From positions 1 to 32,117 of the forward strand of contig JAJCZT010000145.1 in NCBI GenBank assembly GCA_029262255.1: a DNA stretch of 32,117 bases, given 5' to 3'. Each line of letters opens with the position of its first letter. Position 1 is the stretch's first letter. The position numbers were made by a program, and so were the translations under genes. The notes below the pieces were generated by a model. That model searched no databases, was not told the DNA's origin, and saw only the letters and a list, made by a program, of their open reading frames with translations. This stretch comes from Deltaproteobacteria bacterium. Its GTDB lineage: Bacteria > Desulfobacterota_D > UBA1144 > Nemesobacterales > UBA2774. Positions 1,018-8,151 of this stretch are shown here, one piece after another.

Positions 1018-2013
1018 ATGGAGTTTGTAAAAATAAAAGGGACTGATATTGAGTCCTCTCAAATAGGATTGGGAGCATGGGCTATCGGGGGCTGGCTTTG
1101 GGGAGGTAGCGAAGAGAGAGAGTCTATTGACACAATACATACAGCACTAGATAAGGGGATTACATTAATAGATACGGCTGCCATCTATGGGTTCGGCAGA
1201 TCAGAAGAAATTGTAGGTAAAGCTGTTTGTGAGTACGGCGGTAGAGATAAGATCATATTAGCCACAAAAGCGGGACTTGACTGGACTTCCGGAAAGATCT
1301 ACCGGAACTCCACTAAGTCTCGTATTTATAAGGAAGTTGAAGATTCTTTGAAACGCTTACAGACCGATTATATCGATATATATCAGATACATTGGCCTGA
1401 TTTTGAGACCCCTTTTGAAGAGGCGGCAGAGGCTATGCAAGAGCTTCACAACAGCGGTAAAATTAGGGCGATAGGGGTGAGCAATTATACTTGCGGACAT
1501 ATGGATACTTTCCGCGACATTGCTGCTCTACATACGTCTCAACCTCCCTATAATTTATTTGAGCGCGGAATAGAAGATGACATAATTCCTTATTGTGAGG
1601 AACACGGGATTACTATGCTGCTCTACGGCTCAATATGTAGAGGACTCTTGAGCGGAAGGATGACCTCTCAAACGACGTTTGAAGGAGATGATATCAGAAA
1701 GGTCGACCCAAAGTTTAAGCATCCAAGGTTTGAGCAATATTTAAACGCCGTCCAAAAATTGGACGAATTTGCACAAGAGAACTACAATAAACGGGTAATA
1801 CACCTGGCTATGCGCTGGATACTGGACAAAGCGGATTCTCATATAGCGCTATGGGGAGCTCGCCGGCCTTCTCAGCTGGAACCACTAGATGATTTCTTCG
1901 GGTGGTCTTTGGATGAGAGCGCTTTTGAAGAGATAGATAATATATTGTCAGAAACAATTAAAGACCCGGTCGGACCCGAGTTTATGGCTCCGCCTACAAA
2001 GGGTAGGTTGTAA
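1018..2013 (+). CDS. Aldo/keto reductase
   Basis: NAD(P)H-dependent oxidoreductase of the AKR (TIM-barrel) superfamily, 331 residues, full length. The catalytic tetrad is visible as Asp52 and Tyr57 (DTAAIY), Lys84 (ATKAG) and His125 (YQIHWPD). The C-terminal cofactor region includes WGARRPSQL near residue 280. A Shine-Dalgarno-like AAGGAGA lies just upstream of the ATG. The family reduces aldehydes and ketones; the substrate cannot be read from the sequence. The fold and the long WAIGGWLWGG N-terminal loop resemble the stress-related AKR11/YhdN-like group. It lies 21 bp behind the trehalose gene, which may suggest a joint role in osmotic or oxidative stress, but this is inference from position only. 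Confidence 0.9.
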   Translation: MEFVKIKGTDIESSQIGLGAWAIGGWLWGGSEERESIDTIHTALDKGITLIDTAAIYGFGRSEEIVGKAVCEYGGRDKIILATKAGLDWTSGKIYRNSTKSRIYKEVEDSLKRLQTDYIDIYQIHWPDFETPFEEAAEAMQELHNSGKIRAIGVSNYTCGHMDTFRDIAALHTSQPPYNLFERGIEDDIIPYCEEHGITMLLYGSICRGLLSGRMTSQTTFEGDDIRKVDPKFKHPRFEQYLNAVQKLDEFAQENYNKRVIHLAMRWILDKADSHIALWGARRPSQLEPLDDFFGWSLDESAFEEIDNILSETIKDPVGPEFMAPPTKGRL

Positions 2014-2022
2014 ATTTTATTC

Positions 2023-2052
2023 TTGACACAGACATTATATCAGTGAGATAAT
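2023..2052 (+). promoter_or_regulatory. Sigma-70-type promoter for the small membrane protein gene
   Basis: A perfect -35 TTGACA (2023-2028) and -10 GATAAT (2047-2052) are separated by 18 bp, just after the aldo/keto reductase stop. A strong Shine-Dalgarno AGGAGGG (2079-2085) and an ATG (2093) follow. This is one of the clearest promoter plus ribosome-binding-site sets in the window. Confidence 0.65.
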
Positions 2053-2078: not shown

Positions 2079-2116
2079 AGGAGGGTAAAGTAATGGATGA
2101 ATCTTTTGCTGTCTAA
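2079..2116 (+). other. Strong RBS and ATG leading into an in-frame stop (interrupted start of the next gene)
   Basis: AGGAGGG at 2079-2085 is followed at good spacing by ATG 2093. From that ATG the frame reads MDESFAV and then hits TAA at 2114-2116. The same frame continues after the stop as LYIVIYVYIAYTL directly into the ORF called at 2153. The piece after the stop reads like the N-terminal membrane helix expected for the protein, so the stop appears to interrupt a real gene near codon 8. A sequencing or assembly error would give the same picture. Confidence 0.6.
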
Positions 2117-2152
2117 CTTTATATAGTTATTTATGTTTACATAGCATATACC

Positions 2153-2419
2153 TTGATGGTAATAGCGAATAAAACCAATACCGAGAATTCTTGGTTCGCG
2201 TGGATTCCCATACTTAATCTTTACCTTATGTGTAAGATAGCGGACAAACCGGGCTGGTGGCTGATACTGTTCCTTATCCCTTTGGTAAATATTGTAGTAG
2301 CTATAATAGTGTGGATGAAAATAGCCGAGAAAATGGGCAAACCGAGCTGGCTCGGTATTCTCTGGATATTCCCACCTTTAGGGCTTATAGTGCAGGGATA
2401 TTTAGCTTTCGCTGACTGA
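2153..2419 (+). CDS. Small membrane protein, DUF5684-like (possibly a 5'-interrupted gene)
   Basis: The remaining ORF gives 88 residues with about two or three hydrophobic segments (WFAWIPILNLYLM, WWLILFLIPLVNIVVAIIVW, LGILWIFPPLGLIVQGYLAF). The pattern of WFAWIPI, CKIADKPGWW, IPLVNIVVAIIVW and a closing GYLAF resembles small DUF5684-type membrane proteins of unknown function. The TTG (2153) or ATG (2156) start lacks a good ribosome-binding site. A far better RBS and ATG exist 60 bp upstream in the same frame but are separated by TAA at 2114. The gene may therefore be a pseudogene by nonsense mutation, be expressed shortened, or be affected by a base-call error. It does not overlap the convergent HAD gene downstream, which ends 15 bp away. 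Confidence 0.6.
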   Translation: MMVIANKTNTENSWFAWIPILNLYLMCKIADKPGWWLILFLIPLVNIVVAIIVWMKIAEKMGKPSWLGILWIFPPLGLIVQGYLAFAD

Positions 2420-3833: not shown

Positions 3834-4733
3834 TTATGAATAATCAGGATGTTCGTCGGGGTCTACATGAACTGTAACTTCCGCGTTTGGTATTTCAGCT
3901 TCAATTTCTTTAATTATATCCTCTGCAAGCTCGTGCGATTTTACAAAAGTGAGCTCGTAATCCATAACTACATGGAATTCGATAAATTTTACTGATCCGG
4001 CGTTTCGTGTTCTCAACTTATGAAAGCTTCTAACTTCCGGGCGGTGTTTCATTATCATCTCTTCTATTTGTGAAACTACCTCTAGCGGAAGCTCTTTATC
4101 CATAAGTATATTGAGTGACTGCATTACAATACCCCTGGCAGACCACATAATTAAGACCGCTATAATTATTGAGATTATGGGGTCTATCAAACTGAGATCC
4201 GTAAATTTGATTATAATAAGCGCCAGAACAATCCCTATATTTGTATAAACATCAAATTGATAGTGCAGGCTGTCAGCGCTTAGCGCTATGCTATCGGTTT
4301 CTTTAGAAACCCTTTTAATGTATCTGGCTAATACGAAGCTCACTATGATAGAGAACGCGATGACGACTATCCCCAGATTAAGATCTTGAAGATTGCCGCC
4401 GTTTATGAGTCTTTCTACAGATAAATAGATTAGATAAAGAGAGGAAACCCCTATTACAAAACACTGGAATAGGCCCGCTAGTCCTTCTGCTTTACCATGT
4501 CCGAATCTGTGATCATGGTCTGCGGGTTTCTCAGACTTTTTGATGGAAAAGTAATTTACAGATGATGCTGAAAGATCGAGAAAGGAATCTACCGCTGAGG
4601 CCAGTATACTGACGGAGTTGGTTATAAACCCGAACACTAACTTCACTATAATTAAGACTATAGATACAGTAATGGATAATAGAGCTGTTCGGAGTTTTTT
4701 GTGCTTGTTTTGCTCTGGGCTGTTTTGTGACAA
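3834..4733 (-). CDS. Cation diffusion facilitator (CDF) family metal efflux transporter, FieF/YiiP-like
   Basis: 299 residues with six predicted membrane segments and a C-terminal cytoplasmic metal-binding domain. The transport-site residues of the YiiP type are present: Asp49 and Asp53 (AVDSFLDL) with His157 and Asp161 (HYQFD). The region DHDHRFGHGKAEG matches the second-site loop, and the C-terminal domain has HKLRTR, an EFHVVMD strand and HVDPDEH. The family exports Zn(II), Fe(II) or Cd(II) in exchange for protons; the D-D-H-D site favours Zn/Cd/Fe. The start is a TTG at 4733 behind a weak AGTAGGGA. The malic enzyme gene ends 25 bp upstream on the same strand, so the two are probably cotranscribed, although no functional link is obvious. 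Confidence 0.88.
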   Translation of the reverse strand: MSQNSPEQNKHKKLRTALLSITVSIVLIIVKLVFGFITNSVSILASAVDSFLDLSASSVNYFSIKKSEKPADHDHRFGHGKAEGLAGLFQCFVIGVSSLYLIYLSVERLINGGNLQDLNLGIVVIAFSIIVSFVLARYIKRVSKETDSIALSADSLHYQFDVYTNIGIVLALIIIKFTDLSLIDPIISIIIAVLIMWSARGIVMQSLNILMDKELPLEVVSQIEEMIMKHRPEVRSFHKLRTRNAGSVKFIEFHVVMDYELTFVKSHELAEDIIKEIEAEIPNAEVTVHVDPDEHPDYS

Positions 4734-6144: not shown

Positions 6145-6369
6145 TTAATTTCTCACGCTGCATCCACAGCTTACGGGAGTGCATCCGCAAGCGCCGCTGT
6201 ATATATCGGCTGAGGCTACTTCGCCATTCGCCTTTATTCCAAAAGGAGAGAATAGTTTCTCTAGATTTTTGCTGTTACAAGAATAGCACATAATTTTGTC
6301 ATCAGCGTCTATGACAAAAGTCTCAAACTCCTTGCTGCAATCAAGACATTTATATTCAAATATCGGCAC
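6145..6369 (-). CDS. FmdB-type zinc-ribbon regulatory protein
   Basis: Short protein of about 75 residues with the family hallmark PIFEYKCLDCSKEFE near its N-terminus, followed by CYSCNSKNLEKLFS. The two CxxC pairs would form a zinc ribbon, and a cysteine-rich tail (GACGCTPVSCGCS) follows. I chose the GTG at 6367-6369 as start because family members begin with M/V-PIFEY and a GGAGG sits 10 bases upstream of this GTG. The open frame extends to an ATG at 6399, which would add ten atypical residues. FmdB-like proteins are often called putative regulators, but their molecular role is not well defined. The gene precedes malic enzyme on the same strand. Confidence 0.8.
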   Translation of the reverse strand: MPIFEYKCLDCSKEFETFVIDADDKIMCYSCNSKNLEKLFSPFGIKANGEVASADIYSGACGCTPVSCGCSVRN

Positions 6370-6529
6370 GCTGATCGGACCTCCAAAAAATATAAGCAAC
6401 TATTATAAAATTATATGACGAGTAGTCAATCTAAATAGTTGCAGTCACTTGGAATATACAGCCCAGAATTAAAGAATCTGTAATTATAACTGGAAGTAGT
6501 TATGCTGTTAAGTCGTTTTATTGCTGTTG

Positions 6530-7282
6530 TCAGGTATCATCAAATTTCCAATAACTAATCTCGAAATCATTGCCTTCTGTGGCCAGAGCCGCTAGATAGT
6601 CAGAGTCAATTTCGATATTAATGAGCGACCATTTCGAATCTTTATTTTTCATTTGAATATGGTCGGTATGCTCAATATCAGGAGGGACTAATTGCAGATC
6701 AAATTCCTTAGTTGGAAGCCCTATTCCCATCCCCCTTGCTTTTGAATATGCTTCCTTGCGGGTCCAAAGAGTAAAAAAAGCCCAGTTCTTCTTCTTGTTG
6801 GGCTGTGAGTGATAAAACTCACCTTCTTCTTTTGAAAAGAACCTGCTCACAATTTTATCAGCTTTGTTTACCTTTCTAATGTATTCCACATCAATTCCAA
6901 TTTCTCTATTTTGAGTTATGGCATAAAGTGCCAGGTCCTCAGAATGAGATAAATTAAATCTTATGTTCTCCGGATGATATTCGGGGTCAATATTGGGTTT
7001 TCCGTATTTATTGTAAGTAAACCTTACTTCAGATGGAGACGCGTCTAAATAATGGCTAAGGCTCTTTCTTAACAATGAACGTGAGACTATAAACCTCATT
7101 CTATCTTTAGCTGATCTTAGTCTGGAGGCTCTTTGCTTCTCCTCTTGAGATAGGATTTCCATATGCAGCTTCTCTATATCTAAGACGGAGTCATATATTC
7201 TAGCTTTCCATATGTGGACTAGATTCTCTGATAGCTCTAAGTTTGCGGGACTGCTATCCCGGAGTTTGTTGATTTTCTTCAC
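6530..7282 (-). CDS. 4'-phosphopantetheinyl transferase, Sfp-type
   Basis: 250 residues, the two-lobed Sfp/AcpT type. It transfers 4'-phosphopantetheine from CoA to carrier-protein serines. The magnesium/CoA motifs are visible: IGIDVEYI with Asp131 and Glu133, and WTRKEAYSKA with Glu177 and the following Lys. FNLSHSED near residue 110 matches the substrate-binding histidine motif. No polyketide or nonribosomal peptide gene is in the window, so the carrier protein is unknown; it may serve fatty acid synthesis. The start is a GTG at 7282 with no Shine-Dalgarno sequence. A TATTAT hexamer lies only 7 bases upstream of it, so the true start could be downstream or the mRNA could be leaderless. Confidence 0.87.
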   Translation of the reverse strand: MKKINKLRDSSPANLELSENLVHIWKARIYDSVLDIEKLHMEILSQEEKQRASRLRSAKDRMRFIVSRSLLRKSLSHYLDASPSEVRFTYNKYGKPNIDPEYHPENIRFNLSHSEDLALYAITQNREIGIDVEYIRKVNKADKIVSRFFSKEEGEFYHSQPNKKKNWAFFTLWTRKEAYSKARGMGIGLPTKEFDLQLVPPDIEHTDHIQMKNKDSKWSLINIEIDSDYLAALATEGNDFEISYWKFDDT

Positions 7283-7392
7283 AGTATGAATAATACAATA
7301 TCCTAATATATTTACTAAAATCTCGGGTATTTTTACAGCTGGTTATTTAGAAAAGGCCGTTGGCGTAATTTGCAGACGTGTTAGTTTTGGTG

Positions 7393-8151
7393 TTAAAAAG
7401 TTTTCCAAAAGTCGAGTCCTATAAAATCGAGAAATCTTTGTCCGTAAATATTTAGGTAGAAGAGGTTATTTGTCAGCATCAGTAAACCTACGGCTATCAA
7501 CGTTCCTCCCACTATAATTTTATATAAATTATAATGCCGCTTTATCCACCCAAAGGCAGTCAAGGCCTTAGAAAGAGCCAGTCCTGTGAGTATAAACGGA
7601 AGACCGAGTCCAATTGAGTAGACAAATAAAAGCGCGGCCCCTTTTCCCGCCCCTTCAGATGTGCTCGCGTAAAGAAGAATTGAAGCCAGTATTGGTCCAA
7701 CACAGGGTGTCCATCCAAAGCCGAAGGCTATTCCTAAAAGGAATGTGCCGGCCAGCCCCAGATTACCTTCGGGGATGTTTAGTCTCCTTTCTCGGTATAG
7801 TTGAGGAATTTTTATGACATCCATTGAAAATAAACCGAATAAAATTATTATCACCCCTGAAATTTGAAGGAGCAGCACCTTGTTTTCCTGGATAAAATTG
7901 CCCACAAATGAGGCGCCCGCTCCAAGGGAAACAAATACAAATGAAAATCCAAGTACAAAAAGCAGACTCGGGAGGAATATCTTGGTTGCTTTTCCTTCCA
8001 TTCCCCCATCTGTAAGTTCTTCAAATGACATTTTTGAGACCATTGAGACATAGCCCGGGATTAGTGGAAGGACACAGGGCGAAAGAAAAGAGATTACACC
8101 GGCCAAGAAAGCGAACAGCCAGCTTACTTGTACTACTTCAGAGGGGTTCAT
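7393..8151 (-). CDS. CcdA-like thiol-reductant transmembrane protein
   Basis: 252 residues with about six membrane segments, DsbD/CcdA transmembrane family. It passes electrons from cytoplasmic thioredoxin across the inner membrane to a periplasmic partner. The two conserved cysteines are present in SPCVLPLIPGY (Cys26) and FGWTPCVGP (Cys150). The start overlaps the stop of the upstream TlpA-like gene by 4 bp (ATGA), which indicates translational coupling and suggests that lipoprotein is the electron acceptor. In other bacteria such pairs support cytochrome c maturation. Here they close the minus-strand run that begins with arsR, so a role in keeping arsenic-binding thiols reduced is possible but unproven. 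Confidence 0.88.
   Translation of the reverse strand: MNPSEVVQVSWLFAFLAGVISFLSPCVLPLIPGYVSMVSKMSFEELTDGGMEGKATKIFLPSLLFVLGFSFVFVSLGAGASFVGNFIQENKVLLLQISGVIIILFGLFSMDVIKIPQLYRERRLNIPEGNLGLAGTFLLGIAFGFGWTPCVGPILASILLYASTSEGAGKGAALLFVYSIGLGLPFILTGLALSKALTAFGWIKRHYNLYKIIVGGTLIAVGLLMLTNNLFYLNIYGQRFLDFIGLDFWKTF

Follow-up and report, generated by a model that had tools for sequence, protein, structure and literature searches.

A probable nonsense allele of a small DUF5684 membrane-protein gene in an uncultured deltaproteobacterial genus

Results

Layout of the locus

The window analysed here is a stretch of 32,117 nucleotides (contig JAJCZT010000145.1, assembly GCA_029262255.1) from a Deltaproteobacteria bacterium whose genome (G000) is assembled in 187 contigs. 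At 1-996 it holds the 3' part of a gene resembling those for bifunctional trehalose-phosphate synthase/trehalose-phosphatase, truncated where the contig begins. Further downstream, an interrupted DUF5684 gene lies between two conserved neighbours:

1018..2013, + strand: aldo/keto reductase gene, the conserved upstream neighbour
2023..2052, + strand: sigma-70-type promoter TTGACA-N18-GATAAT (-35 TTGACA at 2023-2028, -10 GATAAT at 2047-2052), retained in front of this gene in 8 of the 9 copies checked
2079..2085, + strand: Shine-Dalgarno AGGAGGG, assigned from sequence
2093..2113, + strand: first seven codons (MDESFAV) of the DUF5684 gene from ATG 2093, an ordinary N-terminus
2114..2116, + strand: in-frame TAA at codon 8, where 6 of 6 orthologues have Leu or Ile
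2117..2419, + strand: remainder of the DUF5684 gene, 100 open codons (rest of helix 1 and the Pfam domain) and TGA
2153..2158, + strand: TTG 2153 followed by ATG 2156, the earliest standard in-frame starts past the TAA
2434..3084, - strand: HAD-family phosphatase-like gene, the conserved downstream neighbour

An earlier note on this DNA had taken TTGACA/GATAAT, AGGAGGG and ATG 2093 as a start, followed by a TAA at 2114 after seven codons and then by an open frame; the coordinates are right, the promoter is conserved, and the frame stays open from 2117 to 2416 up to the terminal TGA at 2417-2419. The ORF list enters the 3' part as 2153-2419, beginning at TTG 2153 with ATG 2156 as the codon directly after, and a restart at these codons, 36 and 39 nt past the stop, means the loss of residues 1-20 or 1-21. 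A gene caller would probably set the start there and report a shortened protein of 87-88 residues. By eye, 2153/2156 lack a Shine-Dalgarno sequence, and ATG 2133, which lies between the stop and these codons, is out of frame. Both other frames past ATG 2093 are closed by stops within about 30 codons, so that a frameshift bypass was rejected, and since TAA is the terminator of 15 of the 27 window ORFs with listed ends, a reassignment of TAA is unlikely and a changed genetic code was likewise rejected. TAA also rules out selenocysteine and pyrrolysine.

The DUF5684 protein

By profile score the 88-residue ORF is a member of DUF5684 (PF18936; E 2.5e-16, 60.5 bits versus a curated cut-off of 27.4), and the match begins at residue 14 of the restart product, in which the domain is whole. 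The window frame on both sides of the TAA aligns with all 108 residues of the intact protein from the related genome G002, the TAA being the one stop in the alignment. The earlier note described a helix ahead of an 88-residue ORF; the homologues show the two as one protein of about 108 residues and not as separate parts. A helix ahead of the profile region, which is our own criterion and not one of Pfam, is encoded past the TAA and present in the intact homologues, and it is lost if translation begins at 2156.

With 20 sequences as input, AlphaFold modelled the G002 protein at a mean pLDDT of 94.0 and placed helix 1 at residues 2-27; six close sequences alone gave a poor model (mean pLDDT 61.8). 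As ATG 2156 is codon 22, a start there drops 20 of the 26 residues of helix 1. Like its relatives, the window protein retains all 13 invariant columns of their 20-row alignment, including P39, N42, P53, W55, W56, P63, and N66; unlike the intact relatives, which are uninterrupted, its gene is broken by the TAA at codon 8. No paper in the literature collection searched uses the term DUF5684, the G002 protein had no NCBIfam match at E <= 0.001, and at the same threshold its confident model matched nothing in the PDB, where the best E was 4.0. In the organism's own genome, 93% complete as assembled, neither a protein search (E <= 10) nor PF18936 (E <= 1) found a second copy.

Start, helix and residue at the stop position in relatives

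Within a family set of 16 genomes, own genome counted, nine match the protein at E <= 0.001. Seven copies are intact (one each in G002, G003, G009, G010, and G013, two in G005), and in all of them an ATG matches 2093, an in-frame stop lies closely upstream, the gene has zero internal stops, and the frame reads through the upstream helix. The earlier note had proposed to look up the residue that homologues carry in place of the TAA; it is Leu in two and Ile in four of the six orthologues, i.e., intact orthologues have a sense codon there, as is characteristic of a nonsense pseudogene, with the qualification that three additional codons directly before this position make the placement of the first G005 copy less certain. 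Phe stands there in the second G005 copy, a paralogue at 52% identity. A change of one base in a leucine codon could have given the TAA. The two DUF5684 genes of G005 stand in tandem (L048, G005:C69, 4986-5693), their products having 79% and 52% identity with that of the window.

A wider genome scan yielded 22 loci, five of which are G002, G003, G010, G013, and the broken G004 copy again. In all 17 remaining, more distant loci (L023-L035 and L037-L040; 13 of them included in the 20-row alignment) an open hydrophobic stretch lies 5' of the DUF5684 region and a start codon lies ahead of this stretch, the starts in relatives being placed from open frames. Homologues that begin at 2156 and lack the helix, a prospect raised in the earlier note, were found neither among the seven intact family copies nor among the 17 distant loci. 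The methionine at 2156 is replaced by Gln in three of the six orthologues, and several of the 17 distant-locus proteins also have Met at this position.

Conservation of the promoter and ribosome-binding site

The promoter agrees with 11 of 12 consensus positions, with an 18-nt spacer and TG ahead of the -10. Promoter statistics by themselves are modest: four promoter-like sites were found in 1900-2600 versus 1.9 expected, and the 18-spacer pattern with at most two mismatches occurs twice in the window versus 4.67 expected, i.e., it is not enriched, the site at 2023-2052 being the sole mismatch-free one. Judged by sequence comparison, it is conservation that raises this promoter above chance. 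TTGACA-N18-GATAAT stands 5' of the gene in eight of nine copies checked (window, G002, G003, the broken G004, the first G005 copy, G009, G010, and G013), the second G005 copy being the one without it; the nine do not include G001, which retains TTGACA alone. In these eight copies the pattern is letter-perfect across three genera, even though the synonymous sites of the gene are near saturation in most pairs. By eye, GGAGG or GGAGGG was seen just 5' of the start in G002, G003, G004, the first G005 copy, G009, G010, and G013.

Broken copies within the genus

Seven genomes of the genus, own genome counted, were searched, and six of them hold the locus with reductase and phosphatase genes full-length and stop-free. 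In the seventh, G006 (83% complete), all three genes went unmatched: the DUF5684 gene at E <= 0.001, the reductase at E <= 1e-80, and the phosphatase at E <= 1e-40. Among the six, the gene is intact in G002, G003, and G005 and broken in G000, G001, and G004, by the TAA in G000, by deletion of the 5' half and the -10 region in G001, where TTGACA joins nearby to a tail of about 55 matching codons that opens with ATG, and by an internal deletion with a frame change in G004; G001 and G004 are also draft assemblies, so that their lesions could partly be assembly faults. With two further genomes carrying different lesions, the gene seems dispensable in this genus. When the ORFs of G002 were compared with stretches of the other genomes, suspect cases numbered 2 of 16 in G001 and 1 of 10 in G004, the DUF5684 gene among both, 1 of 8 in G005 (a different ORF), and 0 of 12 and 0 of 6 in two G003 stretches. 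In other genera, the gene is intact in all three genomes of g4 and g5; g2 and g3 gave a gene match in none of six genomes, and the reductase (E <= 1e-80) is present in five of these six.

Further variation was seen beside the conserved neighbours. In G002 (L042, 10274-12632), ORFs of 285 and 498 aa without a window match lie between the phosphatase and the next shared gene. The G001 counterpart of window ORF 3834-4733 (L046, about 6287-7890) is matched at both ends only, which suggests that another gene has been lost or replaced there.

Constraint on the codons past the stop

Between the window and G002, codons 9-108 give a dN of 0.10 and a dS of 1.75. Relative-rate comparisons over these codons gave window-only to G002-only counts of 3:9, 3:8, 4:5, and 3:6 (outgroups G005, G010, G013, and G009), window to G003 counts of 3:12, 3:11, 5:9, and 4:8 (same outgroups in the same order), and window to G005 counts of 6:11, 8:8, and 7:7 (outgroups G010, G013, and G009). 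An excess on the side of the window appears in none of these 11 comparisons, two of which are ties, and signs of relaxed selection were thus not found; the claim made here is therefore one of a nonsense allele and not of a decayed pseudogene. Codons 9-21 show a window excess in no comparison and codons 22-108 a slight one in three of 11 (4:3, 8:6, and 7:5). In the tree the window groups with G002 and G003 at weak support (74/84). Apart from the stop, the window residues absent from the six orthologues are Ile 17, Phe 93, and Gln 101, and Phe 93 and Gln 101 may be regarded as the only hint of drift. A window lineage without overall acceleration means that the stop is very recent, or an error, or harmless to the product.

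As a control on neighbouring genes, the window was checked against ORFs from the syntenic stretch of G002, with a minimum length of 80 aa. Of 32 tried, two had no match and 30 were compared, a number that is an upper count of real genes because the ORFs were chosen mechanically and at least one is antisense. An internal stop was found in one of the 30 window ORFs, the DUF5684 gene; another ORF (139 aa, 51% identity) was matched over 77% of its length and had no stop.

Discussion

The small membrane-protein gene at this locus is most likely a nonsense allele, and it seems dispensable. To the reading that a DUF5684 gene of 108 codons, encoding a small integral membrane protein, has been hit at codon 8 by a recent nonsense mutation, we assign a probability of roughly 70%. 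Intact homologues share the ATG and the helix and have Leu or Ile in place of the TAA, which bears out the fresh nonsense mutation that the earlier note had listed among its options. Promoter, ribosome-binding site, and remaining codons are intact, and the gene is thus probably transcribed. A transcript would be made from the conserved promoter, ribosomes would begin at 2093 and end after seven residues, and, apart from a possible weak and accidental re-initiation at 2153/2156, no full-length DUF5684 protein would arise, and any N-terminally truncated form only in traces. The stop is presumably real in the organism and of recent origin, and it would abolish a protein that the genus can apparently do without. 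The comparison with a young nonsense pseudogene, as generally understood, holds for the intact promoter and Shine-Dalgarno sequence, the single internal stop, the intact orthologues in sister species, and the further broken alleles in the genus; it differs in that the window codons past the stop are without measurable decay, so that the stop is either very young or not real. A point against a recent nonsense mutation is that unrelaxed codons 9-108 would be equally expected from a gene that is still translated or from a sequence error. No new mechanism is revealed by this locus and the biology is ordinary; the notable part is the parallel losses, in which one small membrane-protein gene is broken in three different ways within one uncultured genus while its neighbours stay put.

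The alternative with the next best standing, though a good deal less probable, is that the organism's gene is intact and the TAA comes from an error in sequencing or assembly, or from a minor strain variant taken into a draft consensus. A one-base discrepancy within an otherwise intact gene has the look of an error, the genome is a draft in 187 contigs, and constraint past the stop is normal, codons 9-108 being unaccelerated. However, in the comparison with G002, 29 of 30 window ORFs are free of an internal stop, which indicates that base errors are uncommon in this contig, and in two more genomes of the genus the gene is broken by deletions and not by base-call errors.

It is rather unlikely that the stop is tolerated through re-initiation at TTG 2153 or ATG 2156, yielding a functional protein of 87-88 residues. 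Termination-reinitiation is reported in archaea and bacteria, and, according to the introduction of one paper, the usable restart distance had received no systematic study until then (PMC6728339). The two starts lie 36 and 39 nt past the stop, the Pfam match would be retained whole, and constraint over codons 9-108 is not lost. Yet neither start has a Shine-Dalgarno sequence that we could see by eye, the out-of-frame ATG 2133 in between could divert ribosomes, every homologue examined has its start codon further upstream and an open helix after it, the model predicts that 20 residues of helix 1 would be gone, and the Met at 2156 is a Gln in half of the six orthologues. A more specific proposal, for which we see only a slim chance, is that the TAA is real and fixed and that a shorter form, made by a restart at 2153/2156 lacking a Shine-Dalgarno sequence, is under selection. 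If this were true, the original N-terminus would have become a translated leader, a transmembrane helix would have been trimmed with the protein's function kept, and the G001 tail of about 55 matching codons from its ATG would be a second trimmed form.

Hardly credible is a programmed event, with the membrane protein under the control of a conserved leader peptide or of stop-codon readthrough: the layout alone (strong promoter, short ORF, stop, long open frame) speaks for it, against which the seven intact family copies are all open at this position, the RNA at 2059-2200 folds with a z of only -0.79 (40 of 200 shuffles as good), TAA serves as the ordinary terminator of 15 of 27 listed window ORFs, and the other frames are closed. 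The window resembles a leader peptide or upstream ORF with re-initiation, as generally known, in having a short ORF between a Shine-Dalgarno sequence and a longer ORF; it differs in that these seven codons share the frame of the longer ORF and encode the N-terminus of the protein itself, and that relatives have no separate ORF there. A regulatory leader peptide was therefore rejected, the short ORF being separate in none of the seven intact copies, and the leader with re-initiation suggested in the earlier note finds no support as a designed feature, as the relatives examined are all free of this stop and use the seven codons as an ordinary N-terminus. Stop-codon recoding was rejected as well, the stop not being conserved in homologues and no RNA structure standing out.

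Two minor observations concern the promoter sequence. A search of the own genome for TTGACA-N15-TGAGATAAT returned two perfect matches, one of them 2023-2052, and two with one mismatch, the reversed control returning one; the second perfect match (L069, 1501-1530; G000:C140:10198-10227) lies directly 5' of a 276-aa ORF which by eye resembles a multi-helix membrane protein. The imperfect palindrome TGAGATAATGTCTTTATATCA at 2044-2064 overlaps the -10, is similar by eye in G002, G003, and G004, has one match as a pattern in the own genome, and is a possible candidate operator.
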